Positions 2,383 through 47,102 of a stretch of DNA of 64,000 nucleotides are shown here, piece after piece. Origin of the DNA: Gluconobacter roseus NBRC 3990 (GTDB lineage Bacteria; Pseudomonadota; Alphaproteobacteria; Acetobacterales; Acetobacteraceae); assembly GCF_006538885.1 (NCBI RefSeq), contig NZ_BJLY01000001.1, forward strand, positions 186,001 to 250,000, in the 5' to 3' direction. The notes beneath the pieces are model-generated. The model was not told where the DNA came from, searched no databases, and saw only the letters and a program-made list of their open reading frames with translations. The first letter of the stretch is position 1. Each line of letters starts with the position of its first letter. The position numbers and the translations under genes were made by a program.

Positions 2383-2398
2383 TCCGTCCCGGGGGTTT

Positions 2399-31254: not shown

Positions 31255-32553
31255 TCAGTACATCAGGAACGGCCGGCGTTGCAGGGCGAACTCTGCTTCG
31301 TCCGTTTTCCAGCTGGCCGTGATGTCGGGTGCTGACATGCCCTGTGAGAGCTGGTGGCGGAGGGTGCTGCTGCCAGCCAGGATGTCGAAGGTGGAGCCGG
31401 ATTTCCTCCATATCGGGCTGTCCGATATTTTCAGGACGGTCTGAAGCAGTGTCACGCCTGTCAGCAGGGGATCGAAGGATTTCCGGTCCGTAATGGCGAG
31501 CTGGAGCCCGTGGCATAACTGGTCTTTTGCGACTTTAAACCCGGGTGTGAACCAGTCTTCGCGGAACAGGCATCCCGGGAGGCTTGCGTTGTTGAGGTTG
31601 TCCACCCAGCGGGTTGCGTCGAGATTGGGGGCGCCGAGTGTCAGGAAGGGGGAGGCCGTGCCGCGGCCGACCGAGAGGGTCGTGCCTTCGAACAGGCAGG
31701 TCCCCGGATAGGCGATGGCCGTTGTCACGTCGGGCATGTTGGGGCTTGGGGGCACCCAGACGAGATCGGTTTCGTCCTGATACAGATCCCGGCGCCAGCC
31801 GGTTATGGGAATGACGCTCAGTCGGGCGGGGCGGCCTGCCTGCTGAGGCACAAAGCGGCTGTTGAACAGGCGGGCGAGTTCGCCCACGGTCATACCGTGT
31901 CGCAGGAGGAGCGGGACCCTGCCTACGAAGGATGAAAAGGCCGGGTCGAGGGTAGGGCCGCTGGGGTGCAGGCCTGTAATGGGATTGGGTCTGTCCAGCA
32001 CCATGAACGCGATGCCGCAGCGGGCGCAGGCGGCGAGGGCGTCGAACATGGACCAGATATAGGTGTAGAACCGGGCGCCGATATCCTGAATGTCGAAGAC
32101 GAGAAGGTCGATATCCGCAGATTTCAGAAGCGCATCCAGCTTCGGGCCGGAGAGCGTGTACATGTCATAGACGGGGATGCCCGTACGGGGGTCGATGCTT
32201 TTCGTTTCGGAATGGCCCGCCTGCGCTGATCCGCGGAAGCCGTGTTCCGGTCCGAAAATGGCTTTCAGGTTTACGCCCGGAGCGGCGTGCAGCCGGTCTG
32301 CAATATGGCGCAGCTGTCGGTCCACGCTTGTGGGGTTGGCGATCAGGCCCAGTTTGCGGCCTTTGAGCGCCTGATAGCCATCGGCTTCGAGAACGTCATA
32401 GCCGGTTCGGATTTTGACCGGGGGAGAGCATTCCGCAGGCATTCCCGAAGCTGTTGTCCATGATGATACGGCGGTTCCTGCACACAGGCTCATGAAGGTG
32501 CGACGGCCGAGGGAGGTTTTTCGGGCGGGGGTTGCGGAAGAACGGTGGGGCAT
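31255..32553 (-). CDS. namZ: Exo-beta-N-acetylmuramidase NamZ-like (DUF1343, GH171)
   Basis: 432-residue exported protein of the DUF1343 family; characterised members (NamZ) release terminal N-acetylmuramic acid from peptidoglycan fragments. It has a twin-arginine-like signal (LGRRTFMSLCAGTAVSS) and family motifs KLGLIANPTSVDRQ, AIFGPEHGFRG, LLVFDIQDIGARFYTY, VLDRPNPI and YPGTCLFEGTTLSVGRGT. It lies 24 bp downstream of the PBP4-like gene on the same strand, probably one unit for cell-wall turnover. The symbol is by family only. Confidence 0.88.
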   Translation of the reverse strand: MPHRSSATPARKTSLGRRTFMSLCAGTAVSSWTTASGMPAECSPPVKIRTGYDVLEADGYQALKGRKLGLIANPTSVDRQLRHIADRLHAAPGVNLKAIFGPEHGFRGSAQAGHSETKSIDPRTGIPVYDMYTLSGPKLDALLKSADIDLLVFDIQDIGARFYTYIWSMFDALAACARCGIAFMVLDRPNPITGLHPSGPTLDPAFSSFVGRVPLLLRHGMTVGELARLFNSRFVPQQAGRPARLSVIPITGWRRDLYQDETDLVWVPPSPNMPDVTTAIAYPGTCLFEGTTLSVGRGTASPFLTLGAPNLDATRWVDNLNNASLPGCLFREDWFTPGFKVAKDQLCHGLQLAITDRKSFDPLLTGVTLLQTVLKISDSPIWRKSGSTFDILAGSSTLRHQLSQGMSAPDITASWKTDEAEFALQRRPFLMY

Positions 32554-32577: not shown

Positions 32578-34083
32578 CTATTCGGCTTTGGCGACGGCAG
32601 TGACCAGATCATCCATGATTTTGGTCGGATGAGGCAGATCGTCCGGGATGTCGTTTGCGAAGATGGCGATCAGGAGGGTCTGGCCGCGGGTGGTCTGAAG
32701 GTAGCCGGACAGGGAATGGGTGGCTGCGAGGGTGCCGGTTTTTGCGTGCAGGTGGTCCGCGACGGGGGTGCCGATAAAGCGGTGGGCAAGGGTGCCGTCC
32801 CGGGCTGCGAGAGGGAGGTCGTCCCGCCAGTCTGCGCCCCAGGGCTGGTTGTTGGCGAAGCGCAGAAGCTGGATGACGGTCTGAGGTGTTACGCGGTTAT
32901 AGGGGGACATTCCCGAGCCGTCGTAGAGCGAGAAGCCTGCGGTGGGCAGGCCCAGAGTGGTCAGAACCTGTTTGCGCTCAGTAAGGCCGTCTTCAGTGGA
33001 GCCTTTGCCATGCACAAGGGCCAGCCGGCGCAGAATGAGTTCGGCATGGAGGTTCTGGCTGACTTTGAGCAGGTGACGGATGTCGTTTTTCAGATCCGGG
33101 GCGGGGAGGGTGGCGAGGATGCGGGCGGCTGGCGCAGGCGTATCGGCGGCAGTTTTCGTCAGACGGTGTCTGACCTGTATGGTCTGAACCCGGATGCCGG
33201 TTTGGCGCAGAAGGGATCTGAGGTGGCGGGCGGTTGAGAGGGCTGGATCATCGAGCCCGATTTTCAGTGTCTGGACGGGTGCGTCTATCGGAAGTGTTCC
33301 TGTCAGGATGACGCGGGTGTCGCCGGGCTTCTTTTCAAGGCTTAGTTCGGGTTTGCCGTCCGGGACTGTCAGGGCCTGATTGACCAGCGTCAGTCCTTCG
33401 TCGGGTGCTGACCAGTGGACGGTTGGGCGGTCGCCGGGGTGGGTTCCGGGCTGGACGGTCAGTTCGGCCACGTTGTCGTTCAGCGTCAGGGCCGAGACGG
33501 CGGTTCCCCATTGGGTCGGCAGGTTGTTCCAGCTCCATCCGTCGCCCCAGCGTTCGTCCGCGAAAAGCTGATCATCCGCGATGATGGCATGGATGTGTCT
33601 GAGCCGCTTGGCGGAGACGGCATCCGCCAGTGTTTTCAGGCAGTCGGTTTTGCAGGCAGCGTCATCGGACAGGACGGCATCGCCCGAGCCACGCAGGATG
33701 AGGTCTGGGGCTCCGTGAGGGCGGGGGGCGAGCAGGAGTGTCGTGGGGTGTTCGGCTGCTTCGTGGTCCAGTTCTGCAAGCTCTGCCATGGCGGCGGCTG
33801 TTGTGAAGAGTTTGGTGTTCGAGGCCGGGATGAAGCGTCCGTTGGGGTTGCGGGAGAACAGGGTCTTTCCGTCCTGAGTGGCAATGACGATGCCCCAGCG
33901 CATGCCCTGGTCCTGCGAGGTTTGCAGGATGGGAGAAAGGCGGTCTGCCAGCGCATGTGGGCCGAGCGGGGGTGGGGCGTTCTGGACGGCGCAGGCACTC
34001 AGGGTGATGGGCGCTGCGTATGGGAGCAGTTTCCGGAGGAGCCGGGATGAACATCGCGGGGCATGGCTGGAAATCTGACGCAT
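32578..34083 (-). CDS. dacB: D-alanyl-D-alanine carboxypeptidase/endopeptidase, PBP4 type (S13)
   Basis: 501-residue penicillin-binding protein that trims or cleaves peptidoglycan cross-links in the periplasm. All three active-site motifs are present: S88-N-T-K91 (FIPASNTKLFT), S-G-M-S-P-Y-N (YDGSGMSPYNR) and K-T-G (HAKTGTLAATHS). The start at 34083 gives a lipoprotein-like signal with lipobox LSAC (Cys31), so it may be membrane-anchored; a GTG start at 34128 lacks a ribosome site and overlaps a terminator hairpin. It is followed by namZ. Confidence 0.9.
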   Translation of the reverse strand: MRQISSHAPRCSSRLLRKLLPYAAPITLSACAVQNAPPPLGPHALADRLSPILQTSQDQGMRWGIVIATQDGKTLFSRNPNGRFIPASNTKLFTTAAAMAELAELDHEAAEHPTTLLLAPRPHGAPDLILRGSGDAVLSDDAACKTDCLKTLADAVSAKRLRHIHAIIADDQLFADERWGDGWSWNNLPTQWGTAVSALTLNDNVAELTVQPGTHPGDRPTVHWSAPDEGLTLVNQALTVPDGKPELSLEKKPGDTRVILTGTLPIDAPVQTLKIGLDDPALSTARHLRSLLRQTGIRVQTIQVRHRLTKTAADTPAPAARILATLPAPDLKNDIRHLLKVSQNLHAELILRRLALVHGKGSTEDGLTERKQVLTTLGLPTAGFSLYDGSGMSPYNRVTPQTVIQLLRFANNQPWGADWRDDLPLAARDGTLAHRFIGTPVADHLHAKTGTLAATHSLSGYLQTTRGQTLLIAIFANDIPDDLPHPTKIMDDLVTAVAKAE

Positions 34084-34125
34084 GAAGGCCCTGTCCGAGT
34101 GGAAATTGTGAGGGGGCTGAAAAGA

Positions 34126-34164
34126 CACGAGGCTGCCTGTATCGGGTGAACAGGCAGCCTCGTG
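34126..34164 (-). terminator. Rho-independent terminator after the TonB receptor
   Basis: A perfect 15 bp stem (CACGAGGCTGCCTGT at 34126-34140 with its complement at 34150-34164) and 9-base loop, followed on the minus strand by TCTTTTC. It ends the receptor transcript just before the PBP4 gene. Confidence 0.85.
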
Positions 34165-34190: not shown

Positions 34191-37079
34191 TCAGAACTCC
34201 ATGCGGATACCGCCGCGATAGGTCCGGCCCAGCAGGTTGCTGTAGGTTTCGTCGGCTTCAAGTCCACCTTCCGGCAGCAGGATCGGGGAGGTGTTTGCGA
34301 GGTTGGTGACGGTCAGGAAGAGCTGCATCTTGCCGATTTTTTCGACCGGAAGATTATAGGTCGCGTTCATGTCGAAGTAGAAAATGCCCGTGACGCGGTT
34401 GTTGTTGATCGTGGGATAGTTGGCGTTATAGGCCGGGCATGTTCCGGAGCACTGGATGTAGCTGTTGGAATAATTGCCGGCACTGATGCCACGGGCGATG
34501 GCCGTGAGGCTGTAGCGCGACGTGCTGTAGGTGGCCGAGAAGCGGTAGATCCAGCGCGGCGGGCCGGAGGAAATGTCGCCCGACGTGTCGACCGTGTAGC
34601 CCATACCTGAGTCAGAGACATATTTCAGGTAGTTCGTGGCCTGACCGTGGATGGTGAACTTGCCGTCGGCGTCGCGCAGCAGGCGGCGGAGCGGAAAGCT
34701 GTATGAGGCGTCGATGTCGATGCCGCTGGTTTCAAGCTTGGCGAAGTTGAACGGGGAGGCGCTGATCAGCAGATCGCGCGTGCCTGTCGGATCGGGGCGG
34801 ATGGCCGAGCAGAACGTGGTGTATCCCGAGTAACACTCGTTGATGATGGACTGCGGGTAGAACTGTTCGATCGCGTTCTTGATCTTGGTATGGAACCAGT
34901 CGACCGAGACGGCCAGACCGGAGACATAGCGCGGCGTGATGACGGCACCGACGACGGTCGTGTTGGCGGTTTCGGGACGCAGTTTTGCGTTGCCTGTGGT
35001 ATTGGCGAGGACGGTGTTCGTCAGGCCCGTTGCCGGATTGAGCACGCTTGTCGTCTGGGACGTTCCGGCGTTGTAAAGCTCGTTGATGTTGGGTGCGCGG
35101 ATGTCATGCGACTGGGTGGCGCGGAACAGCACGTCCTTGATGGGCTGCCAGGTTCCACCGATTTTCCATGTCGTGACGTAGCCGGAGGTCGAGTAGTCGG
35201 TTCCGCGGACGGCACCGTTGAAGGACAGGCCCTTCGCCAGCGGGATTGCGGTTTCGAGATAGGCTTCCTTGACGTTGTAGTGGCCGAATGTCGGGCGGTA
35301 ATTGCCGACGGACCAGCCCGACTGGTATTCGGTCGGGACGTATCCGGAAGAGCGCTCGTCACGGTATTCGCCGCCGACGGCCACGTTCACGTCACCCGCC
35401 CATGTGGCGAACGGGATCGTGGAGAGGTTCACGCCCGAGACGATTTCCTGAAACCGCTGGTTCCGCCACGGTGCGTCAAGAACGTAACCGATGGACGCGG
35501 GGGACATGACACCCGTTCCCAGCCAGTCGATCGGGGAGCAGCCATTGCCGGGATCGGTCAGGGAGGAGCGGCAGACAATCTGCCCCGCCGAGTTGCGCAC
35601 GGCGTCAGTCGCATTGGCGATCTTCGCCGTGTTCATGACGTTGTAGATCTGCTCATGCGTGTGGGTGACGCCATACTGGCCGTAGGCGCTCCATGAGGCG
35701 CGCTTGCCGAACATCTCGAAATTGCCTTCGCCGCCGAAAGTATAGCGCTGGACGCTGCGGAGGTTGTCGGTCCGGCGATAGGGCATGTCGAGCGCGGTGG
35801 TGCCGACCGTGACGGACGACACGTTCTGGAGGGCGTCGGCCCCCAGAGCGTCCACGAGATAGGGGTTGGTCCCTTTCAGCGAGACCGAGCTGAGATACTG
35901 TGGGCCGGAATTGTAGACGTATTCGCTCTCGTTATAGGCGCCTTCTGCGTACAGGGTCATCCATGGCGCGACGTCGTAGCTCAGGCGTCCGAAGAGGTTT
36001 TTGCGGTCGCTCTGCGGTTCCAGACCAATGTTCTTGTTGTTGTTGGCCAGGTTCTGGTCGCCACCGACCGAGACGCTGGACGTTGAGAACGAACCGTAAT
36101 TGTAATGGTTGACGCTGCCGCCGGGGCCGAAATAGATTCCGCGCAGGGAGTTCGCCACGCCGCCCGTGGAGGCGTTGATAATGCCGCCGGGCATGACGTT
36201 GTTGGTGCCTGCATCGCCGACACGGAGGTAATAGGGCTGGCCGTTTCCTGCGACATAGTCGGGATTGGCGACGATGCGGTTGCCGTTTACGTTCCAGTCG
36301 CGGGAGACGTGGAAAATGCCGTCCTGATGGGCGATGTCGCCACTGAGCAGGACGTGGCCTTTTCCGTGCGCGAAGCCGAAGCCGCCGGCGATGGCGGCGT
36401 GTTCGTTTTCTCCGTCACCATAGTCGGAAATGCCGGAATCCGCCGTGACCTTCAGGCCCGTATAGGTCTTGTCGAGCACAAAGTTCGTAACGCCCGCGAC
36501 GGCGTCGGAGCCGTACTGTGCGGAGGCGCCGCCCGTCACCACGTCCACGCGTTTGACCAGCTGCTGGGGGATCGTGTTGATGTCGACGATGCCGGTGATG
36601 GCAGAGGGCGTGATCCGTCGGCCGTCCATCAGCACGAGGGAACGGACAGGGCCGAGATTGCGAAGGTTGAGCGCGTTGATGCCGGCCGTGCCGTCACTCA
36701 GGGAGTAGGCGGAGTTCTGGGGCGTCTGGCTGCCCGCGAACTGCGGCATCTGGTTGACGAGATCGGCGATGTTGTTGCTCGGCGCCTGGTTCAGAATTTC
36801 CTGCTGGCTGAGGGAGCTGATGGGGGTCGGGGATTTGATATGCGAGTTCGCAATATGACTGCCCGTAACGGTGATGACTTCCCGGTTGGACTCTGTCTGA
36901 TTTTGTGTCTTTTTATGACTTGCGGCGGTCTTCGAAGGCTGGGAAGATGCAGGCTTCGTATCGGCAGGTTTGGTGACCGTTGCGGCAGCGTAAGACTGCT
37001 GCGGCATGAGGAACGCTGCGCCTGATGACAGGGCCGCAAAGGACAGGAAATAAGACTTCAGGGGCAGTCTGGCCGTCAT
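34191..37079 (-). CDS. TonB-dependent receptor of the putative LysR regulon
   Basis: 962-residue outer-membrane receptor. It has a signal peptide (about residues 1-31), a Lys/Ser/Thr linker, the TonB-box-like VITVTGSHIANSH, and a plug with NLRNLGPVRSLVLMDGRRITP and GGASAQYGSDAVAGVTNFVLD. The barrel ends in GRTYRGGIRMEF. GAGGGAACCAGGG precedes the ATG at 37079. The T-N11-A dyad at 37183-37195 lies about 110 bp upstream, matching those before the D-amino-acid dehydrogenase operon and the serine hydrolase. This links the receptor to import of the compound degraded by those enzymes (inference). Confidence 0.9.
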   Translation of the reverse strand: MTARLPLKSYFLSFAALSSGAAFLMPQQSYAAATVTKPADTKPASSQPSKTAASHKKTQNQTESNREVITVTGSHIANSHIKSPTPISSLSQQEILNQAPSNNIADLVNQMPQFAGSQTPQNSAYSLSDGTAGINALNLRNLGPVRSLVLMDGRRITPSAITGIVDINTIPQQLVKRVDVVTGGASAQYGSDAVAGVTNFVLDKTYTGLKVTADSGISDYGDGENEHAAIAGGFGFAHGKGHVLLSGDIAHQDGIFHVSRDWNVNGNRIVANPDYVAGNGQPYYLRVGDAGTNNVMPGGIINASTGGVANSLRGIYFGPGGSVNHYNYGSFSTSSVSVGGDQNLANNNKNIGLEPQSDRKNLFGRLSYDVAPWMTLYAEGAYNESEYVYNSGPQYLSSVSLKGTNPYLVDALGADALQNVSSVTVGTTALDMPYRRTDNLRSVQRYTFGGEGNFEMFGKRASWSAYGQYGVTHTHEQIYNVMNTAKIANATDAVRNSAGQIVCRSSLTDPGNGCSPIDWLGTGVMSPASIGYVLDAPWRNQRFQEIVSGVNLSTIPFATWAGDVNVAVGGEYRDERSSGYVPTEYQSGWSVGNYRPTFGHYNVKEAYLETAIPLAKGLSFNGAVRGTDYSTSGYVTTWKIGGTWQPIKDVLFRATQSHDIRAPNINELYNAGTSQTTSVLNPATGLTNTVLANTTGNAKLRPETANTTVVGAVITPRYVSGLAVSVDWFHTKIKNAIEQFYPQSIINECYSGYTTFCSAIRPDPTGTRDLLISASPFNFAKLETSGIDIDASYSFPLRRLLRDADGKFTIHGQATNYLKYVSDSGMGYTVDTSGDISSGPPRWIYRFSATYSTSRYSLTAIARGISAGNYSNSYIQCSGTCPAYNANYPTINNNRVTGIFYFDMNATYNLPVEKIGKMQLFLTVTNLANTSPILLPEGGLEADETYSNLLGRTYRGGIRMEF

Positions 37080-37182
37080 ACCCTGGTTCCCTCGATAAGC
37101 GCCGGCGGCGGTGATGTTGCGATATCGAACTAATATGCATGTCCGTTATGCAGTCGTCGATTTCGAAACTGCGCGCGCCATA

Positions 37183-37195
37183 TAACCTAGAGTTA
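37183..37195. promoter_or_regulatory. LysR-type T-N11-A dyad, copy 1
   Basis: TAACCTAGAGTTA, within the 15 bp palindrome ATAACCTAGAGTTAT. Its centre is 110 bp before the TonB receptor start. It matches the other two copies (44423, 46188) at the consensus TAACCTNNRGTTA. Confidence 0.7.
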
Positions 37196-37273
37196 TGTCC
37201 GTGCCACCCCTTGATGTTTCATGAAAGCAACATTTTCCGTATGGCGGGGCGGGGTATGTCTTGTGATTTCAAG

Positions 37274-37316
37274 CGGATCTGCCTTTCAGAGCGGCTTGTT
37301 CCCTAAGGCAGATCCG
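37274..37316 (-). terminator. Hairpin after the S9 peptidase gene
   Basis: A 12 bp perfect stem (CGGATCTGCCTT at 37274-37285 with AAGGCAGATCCG at 37305-37316) and 19-base loop just after the stop at 37325. It lacks a clear T tract, so it is a probable but not classical terminator. Confidence 0.5.
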
Positions 37317-37324
37317 GCAGAAAA

Positions 37325-39399
37325 TCAGTGAGACTGCTGGAGCGGAATTTTTGTGTCAAAGAAATGCAGCGTCCACAGATAGGCGTTCAGCCAGTCCTGT
37401 GTCCGCAGGAAAGCGTGACGCTCACCGGGGAAGACATGATCTTCAAACGGAATGTTCCGTGCTGCGAGCATGCGGGCCAGCAGGACGGATTGCTCGAATT
37501 CAACGTTGAAGTCGTCATCCCCGTGGATCAGCAGGACTGGTGAGCGCCAGTGTGCGATGTCGGCGATTGGGGAGGAGCGCCATTCGCTGTCTTTTTCCCG
37601 CTGCTTTTCTTCGGGAGACAGGCCGGAATGATCTGGTTCCGTCATGTCGTGGACGCCGTGAAAGTCGGCGCCGGCCACGAACAGGTCGCTGTTGCGGGCG
37701 AGGGCCAGAGCCGTCAGATAGCCTCCCCAGCTTCCGCCCCAGATGCCGATCCGGCTCGGTGCTACGTCGGAGCGGCTGCGCAGGAATAGTCCGGCCGCGT
37801 GCACGTCTTTATATTCGCTGGCGCCAGCCCGGCCGATGCCGGGGGCGGTCCGGAAATCCACGCCATAGCCGGTGCCACTGCGATAATTGACGGCCAGCAC
37901 CACATATCCGCGCGATGCCAGATACTGGTTCATGGCATAGGCATTGGAATAATAGCCCATCGGATTGAAGGCCGGGAGCATCTGCCGGTGCGGGCCACCA
38001 TGGACGAAGACCAGTGCCGGATGCGGGCCCGGCGTTTCGGCGGGAGGCAAAAACAGCTGTCCGTGGATGTCGCGGCCATCATCGCTGCGGAAATGGACGA
38101 TCTGAGGCGTTGTGAATGTGAAGCCGGCCGGGATGGTGGGCGTCACAGGCAGGTGGCGGGCATTGTTCTGGAGCACGACCGGGTGGGCAGGCTGGTCTTT
38201 GCCTGTGGCCATCATGGCGAGGTCCGGGCCAGCCATCGTGAGGTCCATGACCTGTTCGTCCGGGTCGCTGAGGGCAACAGGCTGGCCGTTATCGAGGGGC
38301 TGGGACCAGGCGCGCCAGTGATCCGTATCACCGATATTGGCGGTATAGAGCAGGTGGGTTTCGTCCGCTGACAGACGGTAGGACGCGATTTCGGCGTTAT
38401 CCGGCATCAGGCAGCGTGGTGTTGCCGTCGGGGTGGCAACGGGCAGGGCGCAGAGGCGAAGCCAGCCGCTGCCTTCCCATGGGAAAAGAAGCTGGCCGTT
38501 GCGGGTCCATGTCAGCTCCATGCCTTCTGGGGCCCAGAAGCGGTTTCCGGGCCCTTCCGGTGCGGTCCAGAGCGTGTGCTCTGCGCCGGATGTGGTGTCA
38601 TAGACCTGAACGGACCAGAAATGCCCTTTGCCGCGTTCGGCCGTCAGCAGCGGCTTGTAGGCACGGACGAAGGCGAGGGAGCGGCCGTCTGGCGAGAAGG
38701 TTGCTTCCTGATCGTGCCCCAGTGCGGCGGGCAGGAACACGGGTGCGGCACTGCTGTTTCGGGCGTTCCAGAGTGCGATCAGACTGTGGGAGCCTCGGTC
38801 GATTTCGAGCGCAAGGCGGGTGCTGTCCGGGGACCAGTGCAGGGCGGTGATCTCGCCCGGTGTGGTCATGACGACATGTGGCGTCTGACCCGGTTGGCCG
38901 ACCAGCAGCGCGCCACCCCGCATGAAGGCCAGTAGGCGTCCGTCAGGGGAGAAGACCGGACTATGTCCTTCGCCAGCAGTGACGGTCCGGCCATCGGGCA
39001 GGATGACACGCACGGTTTCCCTGCCCGGGATGGCCGCATTGCCGGCGTTGGGGGCGTGGTCGTTCGGATATTCTGCATCGCCGCCTTCGACGAAGGCCAG
39101 TATTCGCCCGTCCGGGCTGAGGGCGAGGCCCCACAGATCGGTTCCGTCATCCTGCGTATAGGCAGTGACCTTGCGGGGGGGGGCGCGCCTCCGTCGGAAA
39201 TCAGGATGTTGCGGACGCCATCCCGACGTTCCACCCAGGCCAGACGTGCTGTTTTTGCGGCGCCTGTCAGGCCGTTGGCATAGGGCATGGCCAGCAGGGC
39301 GCCCAGTTGGGCTGTGTCCGGCGCGGGGGCTGCGATTGCGCCGGAACAGGTGGCCGCGAGCAGTGCGGATGCGGCGAGAAGGGATAGTCGGATGGTCAT
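37325..39399 (-). pseudogene. S9 family prolyl-oligopeptidase-type peptidase, frameshifted
   Basis: Exported dipeptidyl/acylaminoacyl-peptidase-like enzyme, about 691 residues when joined. The N-terminal part (from ATG 39399) has a signal peptide (ALLAATCSGAIAAPAP) and the first beta-propeller strand (AWVERRDGVRNILISDGG). The frame breaks at a G9 run on the + strand (39175-39183). The other frame continues with propeller WD-like repeats (LALSPDGRILAFVEGG, FSPDGRLLAFMRGG) and the alpha/beta hydrolase domain. Catalytic Ser is in GIWGGSWGGYLTAL, Asp near HGDDDFNVEF and His in FPGERHAF. Ten Cs, or seven, would restore the frame. Last gene of the dehydrogenase-acylase-hydrolase operon; its start overlaps the upstream stop (ATGA). 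Confidence 0.85.
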
Positions 39400-40679
39400 G
39401 GGGCTGATGTCCCGGCTTCGGCGAGGGCGGTGAAGATTTCTTCCTCGACGCGGGTGAATGAGGAATAGGCTCCGGGCCGTTCCTGTCCGGAATCGGGGAA
39501 GCCATCTGCGGCAAACAGGAAGCCGTCGCCGGTTGCGGGGTCGTACCAGAAGCCTGAATGCAGCGAATAGGCGTCACCGAGATGGCCGGCCAGATCGCCG
39601 GAATATCCTTTATAGGGCCGGGTTTCGCGCCCCGAAGAATCCCGTGCTCCGGTCAGGCGCGCCATGCTCAGGCCGTAGCTGGCGATTGGGTAAGGGCAGT
39701 CGCCGTTTTTGCCGTCATACTGCCATGTGGGTGTCTGCATCAGGTCGATGCTGCGTGCGGAAAGCAGTGTTCTGCCATCCAGCGTGCCATGAGCGAGCAT
39801 GAAGCGGACGAGACGGGTCAGCCCTTCCATGGAAATGCGCAGGCCACCCTGCGGGGAAAACAGCGTGCCGTTCGTGCCCGGCGTGTAGCTGGCGAGGAAT
39901 GCGGCGTTCCAGTTCGGGGTCCGGGGCTGGGTGTCCGTCTCGGCTTCCCATCCTCTGGGCTGGTGGCTGTAGAGCGTGGCCAGACGGTCGGGATGGGGGA
40001 GGGCCATACGGTTATAGCCACCGTCGATCCCGAGGGGGGCCAGCACATGCGTCTGCTGGTAGTGGTCGAACCGTTCGCCGCTGGCACGTTCCATGATCGT
40101 GCCCACGAGGCCGTAGCAGAGATTGCAGTACTCGAACCACGTGCCCGGTGCGTGTCCGTCTCCATGCGCGAAGTGATAGCCGGGGTCGCCGGGTTTGTGG
40201 GTGGCGTCGAAAAACTCGCTGATCCTGTGGTCCGGTGGGAGCGTGTAGCCGTCGGCGTCGCGGATGCTGGAGGTGTGGTTGAGCAGCATCCGCACGGTGA
40301 TGGGTGTCTGCGGGAAATCCGGGTTGCGGAGCCGGAAGCCCAGATAGTCGGAGGCGTCGTGATCGAGGTTGATTTTGCCCTGTTCGACCAGTTCCATCAG
40401 CCCGATGGTCGTGACGACTTTCGAGATCGAGGCGATGCGGAAAAGCGTTTGCGGACCGACAGGGACTGCTCCGTCCGGGCTCTGTCGGGCAAATCCGCCG
40501 TAATAGCTGTAGGCGACGCGGCCGTGGCGCAGACGGATTGCGGCGATGGCGGCCAGTGGCCGGACTTCGCCTTGCGTCAGGACGCGATCCAGCGCGTGGG
40601 TGGTCTCGGTGGGTGTCTGGGCGTGTGCGGCTGAAGGCAGGACCGCGAGGGCGGCCAGTGTGAGGCCCCGGATGGTCAT
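39396..40679 (-). CDS. Serine hydrolase, class C beta-lactamase/D-aminopeptidase fold
   Basis: 427-residue exported enzyme with signal peptide (1-20, PSAAHA-QT). The SxxK nucleophile motif is S84-I-S-K87 (FRIASISKVVT) and the YxN motif is Y-C-N in TWFEYCNLCYGLVG. The third motif is probably G-H-L-G or H-S-G near the C terminus (LAGHLGDAYSLHSGF). Such proteins include esterases, D-aminopeptidases and DD-peptidases. It overlaps the acylase gene by four bases upstream and the S9 peptidase gene by four bases downstream, so all three are made together. The open frame extends upstream but the ATG at 40679 begins the signal peptide. Confidence 0.88.
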   Translation of the reverse strand: MTIRGLTLAALAVLPSAAHAQTPTETTHALDRVLTQGEVRPLAAIAAIRLRHGRVAYSYYGGFARQSPDGAVPVGPQTLFRIASISKVVTTIGLMELVEQGKINLDHDASDYLGFRLRNPDFPQTPITVRMLLNHTSSIRDADGYTLPPDHRISEFFDATHKPGDPGYHFAHGDGHAPGTWFEYCNLCYGLVGTIMERASGERFDHYQQTHVLAPLGIDGGYNRMALPHPDRLATLYSHQPRGWEAETDTQPRTPNWNAAFLASYTPGTNGTLFSPQGGLRISMEGLTRLVRFMLAHGTLDGRTLLSARSIDLMQTPTWQYDGKNGDCPYPIASYGLSMARLTGARDSSGRETRPYKGYSGDLAGHLGDAYSLHSGFWYDPATGDGFLFAADGFPDSGQERPGAYSSFTRVEEEIFTALAEAGTSAP

Positions 40680-43063
40680 GGTTGAGCCTCCGGGCGGAGC
40701 GTCATGCGGCGGACGGCGGCTGCATCGACACTGCGGGCGCTGAATGACAGCGGCTGCATGGCGCCGCGCAGCCAGACGGGCAGGAAATCGGCGTAATGCG
40801 GCGATTTTGGATCGGCTGACTGACCGGGGAAGTTGAGATACAGCGAGCGGTCCCAGTTGCCGACGTCGCACACCATCAGATAGCTGGCTCCTCCGGTGGT
40901 GGCATAGGCATTCGCGCCGCCTTTCTGGGGGCTGTACCAGCGGGCCATGACGGTATAGGGGTCGCCGCCGCTTTGGGCTGAGGGACCGCCGATCGTGGGG
41001 AAAGCCGCCGCGATGGCCGGGACGACTGCGAGCGGGTGACGCAACGTGATGGTGTGGAGCGCGCCCCAGCGCCATGCGACGGGGAGAGGGCCGAGCCGTC
41101 CCCGCAGTTCCTGAACAGCCTCCCGGAACTGTTCGACGAGCATTCTGTTCCGTGCGGCCACGGGGTCTGCGCCAAAGCGGGTATCGGGGGACTGGAACAG
41201 GGCAAGCTGAACCGTGGCATTGACCGGTCCCGGAAGCAGGTCGTGCAGGGCGGACGGGATGATGAGGGCGTGCAGGGCGCGTTCGAGGCGGGTCCACCAG
41301 ACTTCATACAGCGCGGCGGCCGCACTGGTGGCATCGACGCGGCCGTTCCATGCTTTGAGCAATGCAGCCTCTGCGGCGAGATCGGGCGGGGCGTCTGGCA
41401 GGAGCCGGACCATCTGCAGGGCCAGAACGGATAATGTGTCGTGTTGCAGGGCTACGCTGTCGGCAAGGGTTGCACGCGGTGTTGCATCCAGCATCTGGGT
41501 CACGCGTTCGTGGCGGAAGCCGTCACGCCATTCGAAACTGACGCGCCGTTCCTCGATCGGATAGCCGGGGGGCAGGTTCATTTCGTTGGAGGTTCCGAAC
41601 CAGCCGCGTGCGGGATTGAAGCTGCTGGGGAGGGCTTCGAGCGGCTGAAGACCCTGCCAGTCATATCGTCCGTCTCCCGGTGCGGGCATGAGCCCGTCAT
41701 GTCCCGGAGCGCGACGGGGCAGGCCACCCGCGGCCTGCCAGCCGATATTGCCGCTGGTGTCGGCATAGGTGAAGTTGGTCGGGCTGGTATGGACGCGCAG
41801 GGCTTCGCGGAAGCTGGTCCAGTCATGCGCCAGATTGATCCCGATATTGGCCAGCAGGCCATTGGCGCCGGGGGCGAGCCAGGTGGCCGAGACCGCCGTT
41901 GCGCGGTTGCGGGTTGGATCGCGTGAGACGACCGGGCCGTGGACCGAGTAGAACAGGCTCACCACCCTCTCGGCTTCACCACGCACTGCGATCCGTGTCT
42001 CGACCTGCTCCATGCGTTTCCAGCCGCCCTGATGGGCATAGCGCAGCGGATCGGCGGGGTCGGTGCGCAGGATGAACAGGTCTTCCTGATCGATATGGAA
42101 ATTGGTCCGGCCGAAGGCGATCGTCGCGTTATGGCCCTGCATGACGCCGGGCATGCCAGCACCGCCGCCGCCGATCACATCCAGCCCCGGGGCCGTCAGA
42201 TGGATGACGTGACGCGGGCCGGGGACGCCGAAGGACAGATGTGGGTCATTGGCCAGAATGGGGCGGCCGGTGGCGGTGCGGGAGGGGGCGATGACCCAGG
42301 AATTGCTGCCCTCGTTCCGTCGCCGTGTCTCGTTATCGGTGGCCGCATGCAGGTCGTGTCGTGGCAGGGGGGCCTGAAGCACGCCGAACAGTCCGAGGTC
42401 GTCTTCGCGGATGGCGCTGGTGTCCAGCCCTTCCGGGACGCGCAGGTCATGGACGGGTTCCAGCGGTGTGATGAGCGCGTCGTAGGCGAGCCCGCCTCGT
42501 GCGGCCAGTCGGGCGCGACGGATTTCGGTCTGGGTATTGCCTGTGACTTCGGCGCGGATGCGGATCAGGTCCAGCACGTCCCAGTGCAGCGGTGTGGCAG
42601 CGAAAATGCCGAATTCCGGCGGCAGGAGCGAGGGGGTTGCGGTGACTTCTGCGATGCGCGCATTGATCCCGGCGACATAGGCGCGTGCGCAGTCCTGCGT
42701 TACGGAAGGGAGGGCTGCGAGTTCGCGTTCGGCGTCTCCGCGGAACAGAACCAGCCGGTTGGCCGTGTCGGACGGGACGAAGGCCGGGCCGAAGACTTCC
42801 GCCAGTCGTCCCAGAGACTGCCGATGGCCGAAATCCAGTTCCCACAGCCTGTCGCGTGCGACCAGATAGCCGTCAGCAAAGAAGGCATCGGGGATGGTCT
42901 GCGCGCGGACATGGGGGACGCCCCAGCGGTCTTCCAGAACTTCGACCGGCTGGCTCAGGCCCGGCAGGCTCTGAAGGGGGGAGGCGGCGCGTGCGCTGCG
43001 TCCCGGCATGGACAGGGTGGCGGCGACGCCGCCAAGAAGAATGGTGCGGCGGGTGGCCTGCAT
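40676..43063 (-). CDS. Penicillin-acylase-family N-acyl hydrolase (Ntn hydrolase)
   Basis: 795-residue precursor of the penicillin G/AHL acylase family (S45). It carries a twin-arginine signal (MQATRRTILLGGVAATLS). Autocleavage would occur at EG|SNSW, exposing Ser253 as the N-terminal nucleophile of the large chain; ILANDPHL follows as expected. A later Asn (TSNEMNLPPGY) is in the usual oxyanion/structural position. Family members cut amide bonds of penicillins, N-acyl homoserine lactones or N-acyl amino acids. Located 17 bp after the D-amino-acid dehydrogenase gene, which suggests it frees an amino compound that is then oxidised. Confidence 0.9.
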   Translation of the reverse strand: MQATRRTILLGGVAATLSMPGRSARAASPLQSLPGLSQPVEVLEDRWGVPHVRAQTIPDAFFADGYLVARDRLWELDFGHRQSLGRLAEVFGPAFVPSDTANRLVLFRGDAERELAALPSVTQDCARAYVAGINARIAEVTATPSLLPPEFGIFAATPLHWDVLDLIRIRAEVTGNTQTEIRRARLAARGGLAYDALITPLEPVHDLRVPEGLDTSAIREDDLGLFGVLQAPLPRHDLHAATDNETRRRNEGSNSWVIAPSRTATGRPILANDPHLSFGVPGPRHVIHLTAPGLDVIGGGGAGMPGVMQGHNATIAFGRTNFHIDQEDLFILRTDPADPLRYAHQGGWKRMEQVETRIAVRGEAERVVSLFYSVHGPVVSRDPTRNRATAVSATWLAPGANGLLANIGINLAHDWTSFREALRVHTSPTNFTYADTSGNIGWQAAGGLPRRAPGHDGLMPAPGDGRYDWQGLQPLEALPSSFNPARGWFGTSNEMNLPPGYPIEERRVSFEWRDGFRHERVTQMLDATPRATLADSVALQHDTLSVLALQMVRLLPDAPPDLAAEAALLKAWNGRVDATSAAAALYEVWWTRLERALHALIIPSALHDLLPGPVNATVQLALFQSPDTRFGADPVAARNRMLVEQFREAVQELRGRLGPLPVAWRWGALHTITLRHPLAVVPAIAAAFPTIGGPSAQSGGDPYTVMARWYSPQKGGANAYATTGGASYLMVCDVGNWDRSLYLNFPGQSADPKSPHYADFLPVWLRGAMQPLSFSARSVDAAAVRRMTLRPEAQP

Positions 43064-43080
43064 AGGAACCTGTTCCTTTT

Positions 43081-44301
43081 TCAGCTGACGGCGCGGGTGT
43101 CGAACCCGGCCACGATCTCTTTCAGTCTCAGGCCCGAGCCGACCGAGAGTGTGAAGCCAAGGGCACCATGCCCCACATTGAGCAGAAGATTGTCATATCG
43201 GGTGCGGGCGATGATCGGAACGCCGGTCGGGGTGGCGGGCCGCAGTCCGGCCCAGGGCGTATCGTCACCCTTGCCGAGCGCGCCGGGCAGCGTCTCCGAC
43301 ACGAGGGCGCGCAGTTCTCCGAGGCGTTTGGGGTTCAGATGGGTGTTTTCCGAACCGATATCGACCATTGCGGCGACCCGCAGGCGATCGCCTAGACCGG
43401 CATAGACCACGCGGTTATCGTAATCCGTCACGCTGACCGAGGGCACGAGGCCGGGGCGGGGACGGGTGGTCAGGCTGTAGCCTTTCAGGCCATAGAGCGG
43501 CAGGTTGAGCGCGAGCGGACGTGCCAGTTTCCGGGAGCCGATCCCGGCTGCGAGGACGACGAGATCGGTTTCGAATGGCTTGCCATCCAGCTGGACTTCG
43601 CAGCGGTCTTTCGGGCCTGTTGTGAGCGTGGCGTCGCCCTGTATGAGACGGAAGTTCGGTGAAGCGGCGAGGGTTTCGCGCAGGGCCTTGCAGAACAGGA
43701 AGCAGTCCCCGACTTCGTCTTCGGGCGAGAAGATGCCGCCTGCGATCTGTTCCCGCAGGCCTTCGAAGGCCGGTTCGACGTCTGTGCATTCGGACGGGGA
43801 AAGCGCGCGCTGACGTTCCGGATCACTGACCGATTTCGCGGCTTTGCGGAAGGTGGCGGCGTTGCGGTACAGGACGAGCTTTCCCGGTCGGCGCCACAGG
43901 AAGTCGCCGAGGCCCTCCTCGCGATATTTCTCAAGCTCGGCCTGTCCGCTGAGCGCGAGATCGAGTAGGACTGCGGCATTGCGGCGGTTGGTCTGCCGGT
44001 TGCAGGCGCACAGGAAGGCCAGCAGCCAGCGCCACTGATGCGGATCGGCTTTCAGGCGCAACGAGATCGGGGAGTTCGGGCGGAACAGCCAGCCCAGAGC
44101 GTCCTGCGCGATACCAGCATCGGCCAGCGGGCTGACATAGCGGTAGCTGAGCTGACCGCCATTCGCGAAGCTGGCTTCCCGTCCGACGTCGCCGCGTCGT
44201 TCGATCAGGGTGACGTCATGTCCGTCTCGAACAAGGGCACAGGCGGATGTCAGGCCGATAACGCCCCCGCCGATGATGGTGATGGTCCGTTTGCCGGCCA
44301 T
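43081..44301 (-). CDS. dadA: FAD-dependent D-amino-acid dehydrogenase (DadA-like)
   Basis: 406-residue flavoprotein of the DAO family that would oxidise D-amino acids to 2-oxo acids and pass electrons to the respiratory chain. The FAD-binding Rossmann motif is at the N terminus (ITIIGGGVIGLTSACAL, then LIERRGDVGREASFANGGQLS). The C-terminal part has GLRPATPTGVPIIARTRYDNLLLNVGHGALGFTLSVGSG, typical of DadA. First gene of a four-gene operon with the acylase, serine hydrolase and S9 peptidase. A LysR-type dyad lies about 128 bp upstream. DadA symbol is by family; related substrates (hydroxyproline, N-substituted amino acids) are possible. Confidence 0.88.
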   Translation of the reverse strand: MAGKRTITIIGGGVIGLTSACALVRDGHDVTLIERRGDVGREASFANGGQLSYRYVSPLADAGIAQDALGWLFRPNSPISLRLKADPHQWRWLLAFLCACNRQTNRRNAAVLLDLALSGQAELEKYREEGLGDFLWRRPGKLVLYRNAATFRKAAKSVSDPERQRALSPSECTDVEPAFEGLREQIAGGIFSPEDEVGDCFLFCKALRETLAASPNFRLIQGDATLTTGPKDRCEVQLDGKPFETDLVVLAAGIGSRKLARPLALNLPLYGLKGYSLTTRPRPGLVPSVSVTDYDNRVVYAGLGDRLRVAAMVDIGSENTHLNPKRLGELRALVSETLPGALGKGDDTPWAGLRPATPTGVPIIARTRYDNLLLNVGHGALGFTLSVGSGLRLKEIVAGFDTRAVS

Positions 44302-44422
44302 AAGAATCCTGAGCGTCCAGAGGCTGGGCGCGGGGAGACATTGCAGTCTCCTGCGCCGTGATCATGACCAGAATCTACATTTCCCAAACCGGTTGGGCCA
44401 ATGCAAAGAGGCCATCCTCCCA

Positions 44423-44435
44423 TAACCTGTGGTTA
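44423..44435. promoter_or_regulatory. LysR-type T-N11-A dyad, copy 2
   Basis: TAACCTGTGGTTA. Its centre is 128 bp before the D-amino-acid dehydrogenase start at 44301. Same consensus as copies at 37183 and 46188. Confidence 0.7.
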
Positions 44436-44464
44436 AGGTGTTGTTTTGCAATGAAAACGGTGGA

Positions 44465-46072
44465 TCAGGGATTTGGGGCTTCTGGAGTGGAACTGACCTT
44501 CTTTGGGTGCAGATCCTGCGCATCGAAACTGAAATCCGAGCCGATGACCTGCATTTTCATGCCGCTTATCTGACCCGAGACATCGCGCTCGAACTGCACG
44601 TAGGAATCATCGTCGGCGTCCTGTCCGCGGTCATCCCAGCGGACAATGAACAGATCATGTGGCAGGGCGGAGAGCGTTCCGGTCAGGCCATCGGCATGGC
44701 TGAAAGACATCCGAAGGTCTGCCCCGCGTCGGCTGATCGTGATCGGGCCGCGCCAGTCATCGCGATAGGTGCCGACATAGTCCTGCTGCGCGTCGTGTGA
44801 GAGCGTAATGAAGGGCCGTGCGGGGGAGCCGGGGCCGGTTTCGGCGGCCCTTTTCGCATTTGCGGCCTGTTTGGCGGTTTTTTCGTTCTGGAAATGGGTG
44901 ACCCAGTCCGCGCTCTTGCCGGTTGCGACATAGGAACTGAGCGTTGTTGCGATGGCGTATGTCGCTCCGGGATCGTCATGGTTGGTGAGCACGACGATGC
45001 CTGATTTCCGTTCAGGCAGGAACGTCACATAACTAACCATGCCGCCAATGGTACCGGTGTGCCAGACGCGCTTCAGACCGAAAAAATCCTCCATAAACCA
45101 GCCGTAGCCATAGGCGCGGAAATGGGTCTTTGTGGCATCCGCCGTGTCGGGCAGGGGCAGGAGTCCGTGTGGCGCCCAGAGCGCGTCGCGGCTGGTCTGG
45201 CTGAAGATCTGCTGGCCGTTCGGGGCGCGGCCGCCATTGAGATAGGTCTGGGCCCAGCGCGCCACGCCATCGGCGCTGCACCAGATGCCACCGGCGGGAG
45301 CGACCGCTGGCAGGCGGAGGGCGCTCCGTTCAGGAAGGACTGTGCTTTCGCCTTCGCCGGTGGCCACATTCGTCTGGCCTTTGACCGGCGGTGTGCTTTG
45401 GCAGGCGGGAAGGCTCGCGGCATCGATCAGGTGCTTCTGGACGACTTCTTCCCAGCTCTGGCCCGTCATGCGTTCGACCAGCGCGCCTGCGACGACATAG
45501 AGAAGATTGTTATAGGCGTATTCGCTGCGGAAGGACGCGGTGAACGGCATGAATGGCAGACCGGCCAGGACTTCCGGCCGAGTGAACGTGCTGTGTGAAA
45601 ACAGCATCAGGTCCCCGGCGCCCAGTCCCATGCCGCTATGATGCGTCAGCAGGTCCGAAACGCGGAAGTCCCGTGTGATGGACGGATCGGCCACGCGGAA
45701 TTCCGGCATGTGGTCGATAATGCGGTCGTTCCATTTCAGCTTGCCCTGATCGACAAGCTGAGCCAGCGCCGTTGCGGTGAATTCCTTGGTGTTGGAGCCG
45801 ATGGCAAACATCGTGCGGGTGTCTACCGGCGCGCTCGCACTGTCCTGCGCGCGTCGTCCATAGCCGCGGCTGAACACGACTTCGCCATCCTGCACCACGG
45901 CCACCGCAATGCCCGGCACGTCGAAGGCCAAGCGTGCGTGTTCCACCGTTGTGGTGATGTTCTGTTCGGTCAGGCCCGCTGGTAGTGTGGCAGCGCGGGT
46001 GGCGCATGTCGTGGAAAGGAGAAGTGCTGCCGAAATGGCGAGCATGAAGGACTGTCGGGCGGGCTGGATCAT
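44465..46072 (-). CDS. Serine hydrolase (class C beta-lactamase fold) with C-terminal DUF3471-like domain
   Basis: 535-residue exported enzyme. It has a signal peptide (about 1-28, TTCATRA-AT), the SxxK motif S93-N-T-K96 (MFAIGSNTKEFTA), the YxN motif in SEYAYNNLLYVV and the third motif H-T-G (VWHTGTIGG). After the catalytic domain comes a Lys/Ala-rich linker (about 390-420) and a C-terminal beta domain (YVGTYRDDWRGPITISRRG) of the DUF3471 type. It is a single-gene unit preceded by a T-N11-A dyad and, further up, by the LysR gene. Could be a D-aminopeptidase, DD-peptidase or esterase. Confidence 0.88.
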   Translation of the reverse strand: MIQPARQSFMLAISAALLLSTTCATRAATLPAGLTEQNITTTVEHARLAFDVPGIAVAVVQDGEVVFSRGYGRRAQDSASAPVDTRTMFAIGSNTKEFTATALAQLVDQGKLKWNDRIIDHMPEFRVADPSITRDFRVSDLLTHHSGMGLGAGDLMLFSHSTFTRPEVLAGLPFMPFTASFRSEYAYNNLLYVVAGALVERMTGQSWEEVVQKHLIDAASLPACQSTPPVKGQTNVATGEGESTVLPERSALRLPAVAPAGGIWCSADGVARWAQTYLNGGRAPNGQQIFSQTSRDALWAPHGLLPLPDTADATKTHFRAYGYGWFMEDFFGLKRVWHTGTIGGMVSYVTFLPERKSGIVVLTNHDDPGATYAIATTLSSYVATGKSADWVTHFQNEKTAKQAANAKRAAETGPGSPARPFITLSHDAQQDYVGTYRDDWRGPITISRRGADLRMSFSHADGLTGTLSALPHDLFIVRWDDRGQDADDDSYVQFERDVSGQISGMKMQVIGSDFSFDAQDLHPKKVSSTPEAPNP

Positions 46073-46187
46073 GAACGGCTCTGAATACGATTTTCAGGCC
46101 CCGGATCAGGCGGGGGCCATGCAGAAAGAAGCGTAATTCAGAGCACGAAACGTTCCGCCTGTCGTGCCTTAAGATGCAGGGTGCTCT

Positions 46188-46200
46188 TAACCTCGGGTTA
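46188..46200. promoter_or_regulatory. LysR-type T-N11-A dyad, copy 3
   Basis: TAACCTCGGGTTA, the core of a 17 bp palindrome with 7 bp arms (CTTAACC/GGTTAAG, 46186-46202). Centre is 122 bp before the serine hydrolase start at 46072, in the gap behind the LysR gene. Confidence 0.7.
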
Positions 46201-46211
46201 AGGGACGGTTG

Positions 46212-47102
46212 TCATTCTTTCAGGGCGAGGAGATCGACGTCCAGCTCGCTTCGCAGCAGGGCAAGAATATCCTGCGAGATATGTGAGAGAGCATGATCGG
46301 CCCGAAATAGCACGGTGCAGGTCACGCTTAGCGGCGGGAAGAGGGGACGTGGACGTGACAGGCCCGGATGGTGCAGGGCGGTTACGGCATCCACGATGGC
46401 GCAGCCTCCGCCGAGGCGCACGAGTTCGGCGGCCATGAAATGGGTGCGGACCCGTACATGCGTTTTGGCGGGAATGCCGGCTTCTTCCAGCAGCATGTCG
46501 AGCATGCGGGCTGTGGGGTCGTTTTCGCTGAGGCCGATATAGCGCTCGGGGTCGATATCCGTGACGCTGACGGGGCCTTCGCCTTTTTTGCTATCGATCA
46601 GCATCAGCGGAATATCCGCAAGGTGCAGGGCTGTCAGTCCGTCAGATGTATAGTCCCCGAAAACAATTCCGAGATCGAGATCATGGTTCATGATGCGTGA
46701 GACGATTTCGGTCCCGTGCATGGCATCGATCGTCAGTTCCATGCCCGGATGGTCCTTGCGGTAACGCTGCACCACGCGCGGCACCAGACTCAGGCCCAGA
46801 CTTGGGACGCATCCGATACTGATCGAATGTCCGTCACGGGCGTAACGCAGATTGTCGGTCAGACGCTTGAGATCGGACAGTTTTTCAAAAATGGCGTTGA
46901 CGTGAGGCAGCATGATGCGGGCCTCCCGGGTCGGGACGAGCCGTCCTCCCGCCCGTTCGAACAGCGCAAATCCCAGTGACTGTTCGGCGTAGCGCAGGAC
47001 CTTGCTGGCGGCAGGTTGAGAGACGTGGAGCAGTTCGGCGGCCCGTCGGAGCGAACCTGTCGTCATGATCGCATAGAAAACTTCGATCTGGCGCAGGCGC
47101 AT
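46212..47102 (-). CDS. LysR family transcriptional regulator
   Basis: 296-residue regulator. The N-terminal winged helix-turn-helix is standard (MRLRQIEVFYAIMTTGSLRRAAELLHVSQPAASKVLRYAEQ), with a C-terminal periplasmic-binding-like effector domain. The ATG at 47102 begins the conserved MRLRQIEVF and follows AGGGA with suitable spacing. The helix sequence (GSLRRAAELLHVSQPAASKVL) resembles the NocR/OccR-type group, regulators that often respond to amino-acid derivatives (inference). It sits next to the serine hydrolase and near three T-N11-A sites, so it is the best candidate for their regulator. Confidence 0.88.
   Translation of the reverse strand: MRLRQIEVFYAIMTTGSLRRAAELLHVSQPAASKVLRYAEQSLGFALFERAGGRLVPTREARIMLPHVNAIFEKLSDLKRLTDNLRYARDGHSISIGCVPSLGLSLVPRVVQRYRKDHPGMELTIDAMHGTEIVSRIMNHDLDLGIVFGDYTSDGLTALHLADIPLMLIDSKKGEGPVSVTDIDPERYIGLSENDPTARMLDMLLEEAGIPAKTHVRVRTHFMAAELVRLGGGCAIVDAVTALHHPGLSRPRPLFPPLSVTCTVLFRADHALSHISQDILALLRSELDVDLLALKE

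Follow-up and report, generated by a model that had tools for sequence, protein, structure and literature searches.

What unites, and what controls, the neighboring genes for a TonB-dependent receptor, a D-amino acid dehydrogenase-like enzyme and a serine hydrolase that lie beside a LysR-type regulator gene in Gluconobacter roseus NBRC 3990? We analyzed a 64,000-nucleotide stretch of this genome (RefSeq assembly GCF_006538885.1, contig NZ_BJLY01000001.1, positions 186,001 to 250,000; hereafter, the window), in which a preliminary description had noticed three copies of a T-N11-A dyad, the known form of a LysR box, and had proposed a LysR regulon. Our analysis supports this proposal: within the genome, exact sites occur only here, they are conserved before the same genes in relatives, and the box before dadA tracks the presence of a LysR ortholog. 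We consider it highly probable that the box is the operator of the adjacent LysR regulator. The full explanation, in which a LysR activator uses three boxes to switch on units for the uptake and breakdown of D-amino-acid peptides, is likely.

All three words lie where the preliminary description had placed them (Table 1), and the distances from box center to start codon are, as claimed, closely matched, at 110 bp (TonB receptor), 128 bp (dadA) and 122 bp (serine hydrolase). The LysR gene adjoins the boxes, and it and all of the units are on the minus strand. The pattern TAACYNNNRGTTA matched three times in the window, and 100 dinucleotide shuffles yielded no match. Across the 2,880,066 bases of the genome, it occurred exactly three times, at these same sites, all confined to one 9-kb stretch of the window. 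As a control, the reversed pattern also had three matches in the same genome, on other contigs. The count in a single genome therefore carries no weight; the clustering of the sites and their placement before transcription units do. A fourth near-match in the window (56462), with one mismatch and a G at a flank, is probably not a true site. The genome has 23 one-mismatch places, compared with 78 places with up to one mismatch for the reversed control. Inspection of the flanks and frames at the 22 one-mismatch places outside the window established no further target, with weak targets possible among them, and one frame overlapping such a place (L144; genomes and loci are cited by our own G and L labels) matched no Pfam family.

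To characterize the motif, we compiled 57 unique exact sites from the window stretch, 40 LysR loci of relatives that were unselected for sites and eight remote loci that had already been judged targets (remote nontarget loci were left out). The motif over these sites is symmetric, with the half-site CWTAAC(C/T) and a loose 3-base center. Of the word shared by the three boxes in the preliminary description, the repeat itself stands, and the T that follows TAACC is in part a chance product of the direction in which the sites were read. The ±7 positions, which were absent from the search pattern, were A/T in all 57 sites, and position ±8 was C on the left or G on the right in 66% of them. A second set, of 35 exact sites in 12 LysR-positive genomes, was not preselected as targets. 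Here, both ±7 positions were A/T in 26 of 26 sites before target-type genes, versus 4 of 9 others. Judging from these alignments, the operator appears to be a symmetric 15- to 17-bp dyad, CWTAACC-N3-GGTTAWG, that contains the T-N11-A LysR box.

The same motif emerged when no motif was preset. We scanned the 300 bases upstream of dadA, BL2 (the serine hydrolase next to lysR) and TonB receptor homologs in the window and in 40 loci of relatives (36 named loci plus L040, L042, L043 and L044), which gave 75 usable regions; many of the loci are from near relatives, so the counts are nonindependent. Among palindromes of the form 5-N(0-11)-5, TAACC-N3-GGTTA ranked first (28 of 75 regions), and the next nonoverlapping palindrome reached 9. 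With 4-base arms, TAAC-N5-GTTA was found in 44 of 75 regions, compared with 13 for the next unrelated palindrome and at most 5 in 30 mononucleotide shuffles. By gene, the exact box preceded dadA in 28 of 34 regions (likewise 28 with up to one mismatch) and the TonB receptor gene in 6 of 7 (7 of 7 with up to one mismatch). Where dadA lacked a box (six regions), it lies directly behind BL2, whose upstream site is exact in one of these loci, has one mismatch in four and has two in one. The conservation that the preliminary description had named as a source of support was found: numerous acetic acid bacteria, from six named genera, keep sites before these same genes.

The box also follows the regulator across genomes. 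We drew 200 genomes of the family, including the window's own. Among the 199 others, 11 carry a LysR ortholog (55 to 90% identity), with the next best match at 37%; the distribution of the locus is patchy. Homologs of dadA had a box in 11 of the 12 LysR-positive genomes, compared with 0 of the 17 LysR-negative loci whose upstream DNA could be read. In the exception, G022, dadA lies behind BL2, and a one-mismatch box is found further up. The LysR-negative set consisted of 18 dadA homologs (39 to 55% identical) whose surroundings were fetched; 17 had at least 290 bases upstream, L189 with its 27 bases was left out, and further dadA homologs lie outside the set. No box with up to one mismatch was seen within 2.7 to 4.2 kb at the LysR-negative dadA loci. 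Because just one of these homologs (G048, 55%) reaches the similarity of the LysR-positive set, the contrast in part reflects orthology. Of the 35 exact sites in the 12 LysR-positive genomes, 17 were within 20 kb of lysR, versus 0 of 38 reversed-control sites. The exact word TAACCNNNGGTTA is found in 54 of the 200 family genomes, 43 of them without a LysR ortholog, and we set this family-wide count aside as uninformative.

Elsewhere in the relatives' genomes, the sites mostly precede the same kinds of genes. Reading locus by locus, we found that 26 of the 35 exact sites precede a gene for a TonB receptor, DadA-like enzyme, serine hydrolase or peptide importer (window genome, 3; G174, 5; G042, 2; G073, 1; G189, 3; G142, 3; G037, 3; G022, 0; G030, 2; G025, 1; G079, 2; G149, 1). 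Sites far from lysR precede TonB receptor genes in G174, G042, G037 and G079, and such a site in G030 is 19 kb away. In G174, one site precedes a TonB-DacB pair whose TonB receptor is 71 to 73% identical to that of the window, and another is flanked by a TonB gene and a second dadA-BL1-BL2 cluster. A remote site in G037 precedes a BL2 homolog. Near lysR in G189 and G142, sites lie before a TonB gene with a peptidase gene behind it (S15 where tested), and also before an oligopeptide importer; the Pfam assignments of these TonB and importer genes come from a single copy of each homologous pair. A leftover site in G079, first set aside, is followed about 110 bp downstream by a frame that holds a TonB plug domain.

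The preliminary description was right that the boxes precede three separate units; its TonB unit was incomplete, as the receptor gene is the first of a TonB-DacB-NamZ run in which 62 and 24 bases separate successive open frames. This order is kept in three further Gluconobacter genomes (G200, G201 and G202), and in G201, the arrangement S9-box-TonB-DacB-NamZ is identical to that of the window. In the second unit, the dadA, acylase, BL1 and S9 genes overlap or almost touch.

Table 1. Boxes, promoter elements and genes of the LysR locus (positions are those of the window)
Feature	Position	Strand	Description	Basis
Box 1	37183..37195		TAACTCTAGGTTA in gene orientation; upstream of TonB receptor	
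Box 2	44423..44435		TAACCACAGGTTA in gene orientation; upstream of dadA	
Box 3	46188..46200		TAACCCGAGGTTA in gene orientation; between the stop of lysR and the start of serine hydrolase BL2	
Conserved block	44398..44409	-	TCTTTGCATTGG; about 26 bp downstream of box 2 center	25 dadA promoters
Conserved block	37156..37168	-	TTTCGAAATCGAC; downstream of box 1	8 TonB promoters
-10-like element	44372..44377	-	TAGATT; dadA promoter	By eye
-10-like element	37130..37135	-	TATTAG; TonB promoter	By eye
-10-like element	46135..46140	-	TGAATT; serine hydrolase promoter; weakest of the three	By eye
lysR	46212..47102	-	LysR-type regulator, HTH_1 + LysR_substrate, 296 aa	Pfam
BL2	44465..46072	-	Secreted PF00144 serine hydrolase with DUF3471, AmpC/D-peptidase fold	Pfam, PDB relatives
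dadA	43081..44301	-	D-amino acid dehydrogenase-like, PF01266	Pfam, PRK00711
Acylase	40676..43063	-	Penicillin-amidase family, PF01804	Pfam; nearest solved relative D-succinylase
BL1	39396..40679	-	PF00144 serine hydrolase, esterase/D-peptidase fold	Pfam, solved relatives
S9 peptidase	37325..39399	-	PF00326 (frame 37325-39577)	Frame broken at 9-C run
TonB receptor	34191..37079	-	TonB-dependent receptor, first of TonB-DacB-NamZ run	Pfam, orthologs
DacB	32578..34128	-	DacB-like S13 D-Ala-D-Ala carboxypeptidase/endopeptidase, PF02113	Pfam
NamZ	31255..32553	-	Exo-beta-N-acetylmuramidase, PF07075 + PF20732	Pfam

The dadA product scores 360.4 bits against PRK00711, below the cutoff of 383, and is best described as DadA-like, not as DadA proper. 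The acylase matches PF01804 with 619 bits over profile positions 1 to 674 of 675 and aligns with the D-succinylase 7eby over residues 11 to 791 (550 bits), with the next solved relative, a penicillin G acylase, at about 205 bits; in its solved relatives, the second chain begins at the position that corresponds to query residue 253. Among solved structures, BL1 and BL2 match chains of D-peptidases, D-amino acid amidases or D-Ala-D-Ala carboxypeptidases, along with esterases and AmpC. The NamZ_N and NamZ_C domains score 252 and 162 bits. DacB was found in 6 of 18 genomes searched, adjoining the TonB gene in all 6, and NamZ was found in 13 of the 18, of which 8 have it beside lysR, the TonB unit or a box cluster and 4 have it elsewhere, with the 13th (G205) assigned to neither group.

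The S9 gene changes frame at the 9-C run, and four Gluconobacter loci (L093, L095, L096 and L127) keep one frame; the break may reflect a sequencing error or phase variation. A glycoside hydrolase family 92 gene (28955 to 31248 of the window) is likewise present as two overlapping frames, and the split falls near 30700, at a 7-G run. That two homopolymer breaks lie within 10 kb suggests assembly error, and switching is also possible. A PhzF-family isomerase gene (47269 to 48111, same strand) precedes lysR, and no box, even allowing one mismatch, lies before it. In related loci, class A beta-lactamase-like genes (PF13354) are found beside lysR (L036, 10615 to 11775; L037, 8952 to 9887) or about 2 kb from it (L034, 6835 to 7812), and in L034, a one-mismatch box (7884) lies between the beta-lactamase-like gene and a DAO-family gene, an AmpR-like arrangement. 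L040 has a glycoside hydrolase family 20 beta-N-acetylhexosaminidase gene about 6 kb from lysR (2086 to 4296). In L041, the G030 locus, a gene matching HGSNAT_cat, an acetyltransferase of amino sugars, lies between the TonB and BL2 genes (5091 to 6239), in line with amino-sugar salvage.

We propose that LysR controls BL2 as one unit, dadA, the D-succinylase-like acylase, BL1 and the S9 peptidase as a second and the TonB receptor, the DacB carboxypeptidase and the NamZ muramidase as a third. A LysR tetramer would sit on the box, and its ligand-bound form would contact a downstream block and activate transcription, the ligand probably being a D-amino acid or a peptidoglycan-derived peptide. The products would import peptides, trim them in the periplasm and oxidize the freed D-amino acids via DadA. 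This theme follows from the predicted enzyme families, as D-succinylase-like acylases, DadA-like enzymes, S13 carboxypeptidases and NamZ are D-specific or cell-wall families, and we moderately favor D-amino-acid peptides in general as the substrates. Peptidoglycan is the commonest natural source of such peptides. A narrower and more tentative possibility is cell-wall scavenging, in which LysR would sense a D-amino acid or muropeptide and the regulon would feed on the walls of other bacteria. The TonB receptor would then carry peptidoglycan fragments across the outer membrane, and behind it would act a muramidase, D,D- and D-peptidases, an N-acyl-D-amino acid acylase and a respiratory D-amino acid dehydrogenase. 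Gluconobacter walls are themselves described as unusual in their cross-links, in the accessible part of PMC10864386, and a link to the regulon may or may not exist.

The strongest competitor, which we think somewhat unlikely, keeps the regulator and assigns it another substrate, such as beta-lactams, N-acyl amino acids, acyl-homoserine lactones or lasso-type peptides. The penicillin-amidase and AmpC-fold families leave room for this, as do the S9 match to a lasso peptide isopeptidase model (70 bits against a cutoff of 400) and the class A beta-lactamase-like genes of the three related loci. D-succinylase itself, as far as the accessible sections of two papers go, acts on N-acyl D-amino acids, freeing D-amino acids from N-succinyl forms with imperfect stereoselectivity (PMC7431475, PMC11241749). 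Yet no beta-lactamase, PvdQ or lasso model reached its cutoff among the best 25 for each protein, and the presence of DacB and NamZ in the TonB unit points to peptidoglycan.

The promoters bear on how the regulator would act. We stacked 25 dadA promoters (six named genera) and 8 TonB promoters gap-free on the box. Most of the dadA promoters share a common block at positions 27 to 38 and a TAG(A/G)TT-like element near 59 to 64; the TonB promoters have a GTTTCGAAATCGAC-like block at a similar place and an A/T-rich element near 61 to 66. The conserved blocks downstream of boxes 1 and 2 are possible activation sites. If these last elements of the dadA and TonB promoters are −10 elements, the box center lies at about −64 to −66 of the transcription start. 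LysR regulators are described, in the accessible portions of PMC5603801, as having a T-N11-A anchor near −65 and activating via a second site near −35, and T-N11-A is also described in the part of PMC8407307 that is accessible. That LysR instead mainly represses the units until its ligand relieves them seems improbable. The box between lysR and BL2 would permit repression or autoregulation, as would the boxes upstream of lysR in five Gluconobacter loci, whereas a box about 65 bp upstream of the predicted start, together with a conserved downstream block, fits an activator. In those five loci (L094, L095, L096, L125 and L127), a box of the form TA(A/G)CYYCAGGTTA lies about 145 to 260 bp before lysR, which suggests autoregulation; in the window, no box with up to one mismatch was seen upstream of lysR. 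The orientation of lysR varies as well, being codirectional with the targets in the window and divergent from dadA in Acidomonas (L039); divergence from a target is frequent among LysR-type regulator genes and not a fixed rule.

The regulator itself is a regular member of its family (PF00126, 64 bits; PF03466, 107 bits; both above cutoff), and its AlphaFold model (mean pLDDT, 87.7) has the fold of LysR-type transcriptional regulators. It falls below the cutoff of PRK11013, which we take to be the E. coli-type LysR (131.8 versus 288 bits). The nearest solved ligand domain is that of AdmX, with 98 bits by sequence and, for the model, a template-modeling score of 0.87 (by the target's length), a root mean square deviation of 2.4 and 27% identity. 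Full-length regulators of many kinds also match the model, so the ligand cannot be read from the structure. The regulator's nearest named relatives are from Gluconobacter (98% in G. vitians; 95% in G. cadivus, G. albidus and others), followed by Gluconacetobacter, Acetobacter, Novacetimonas, Komagataeibacter and Acidomonas. Two further LysR-type genes, about 30% identical (L045, 10450; L046, 18110), have the same box at their own border; their products share a similar recognition helix (SQPAxSKxLR), and one of the two genes is beside a hydantoinase gene. L047 and L048 have a similar helix, and no box was seen there. As a lead only, specificity for TAACC may predate this regulon; among LysR relatives from beyond the acetic acid bacteria (L129 to L139), no consistent box was seen.

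These relatives help to judge whether another regulator binds the boxes and the LysR gene merely adjoins them, which we consider very unlikely. T-N11-A is a loose description, and the 43 family genomes that carry the exact word and lack a LysR ortholog would be compatible with a different binding protein. However, the dadA box tracks the LysR gene, about half of the sites in LysR-positive genomes cluster near lysR, and L045 and L046 carry the box at their own border, although L047 and L048 do not. Chance repetition of a short word can practically be dismissed: three sites in a single genome are thin evidence and total counts are on a par with those of the reversed control, but the comparison already contradicts it through where the sites lie, their conservation across six named genera, their A/T flanks and the palindrome scan.

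Several observations weigh against the proposed regulon or its function. The total number of exact sites over the 12 genomes is not above that of the reversed control (35 versus 38), and we dropped abundance as evidence in favor of placement. Nine of the 35 sites have no evident target (L054, L060, L061, L063, L064, L077, L083, L084 and L161), and the weakest of the target assignments are the importers of G189 and G142, whose starts are 273 and 291 bp away from the box. Before BL2, only 7 of 34 loci have an exact site and 21 have one with up to one mismatch, leaving 13 in which the site is beyond one mismatch. The LysR ortholog was not found in three sampled genomes of the window's genus. As for function, 5 of the 18 genomes searched lack NamZ, in 5 of the remaining 13 no NamZ was found close to the regulon, and the PF00144 and PF01804 families have many nonpeptidoglycan substrates.

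The regulator, the operator sequence and the target list are directly testable in easily grown bacteria. If the cell-wall scavenging proposal is true, acetic acid bacteria possess a regulon devoted to consuming the walls of other bacteria, with TonB-dependent import of peptidoglycan fragments as food, and the locus names candidate D-specific hydrolases of practical use. Our literature search, which left most subscription-journal papers outside its reach, found no description of this regulon.

Among known systems, the T-N11-A LysR regulators, such as PnpM and BsrA, have the same domains and the same box geometry, with a box near −65 as predicted here; the present system differs in having its own half-site, TAACC, a new target set and a regulator gene codirectional with its targets. 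AdmX of Serratia, the andrimid regulator, has the nearest solved effector domain and is only about 27% identical. It is described as regulating antibiotic synthesis and responding to auxin, in the accessible part of the literature, and the accessible part of PMC5216899 gave no known operator for it. The D-succinylase of Cupriavidus aligns almost end to end with the predicted acylase, which here stands in an operon with dadA and peptidases. In the AmpR-ampC system, a LysR-type protein reads peptidoglycan fragments and controls an AmpC-fold enzyme. The locus resembles it in pairing a LysR-type protein with an AmpC-fold enzyme, but the targets here look catabolic, and no AmpR model appears among the best 25 of 50 NCBIfam families for the LysR protein. 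In NamZ-type cell-wall sugar salvage, as in Tannerella, a NamZ muramidase is accompanied by transport and cell-wall enzymes; here, it would be joined to a TonB receptor, D-amino-acid oxidation and a LysR regulator in an alphaproteobacterium. Regulons of this general LysR form are well known, and within the reach of our literature search, it is the regulator, operator and target set that appear to be new.

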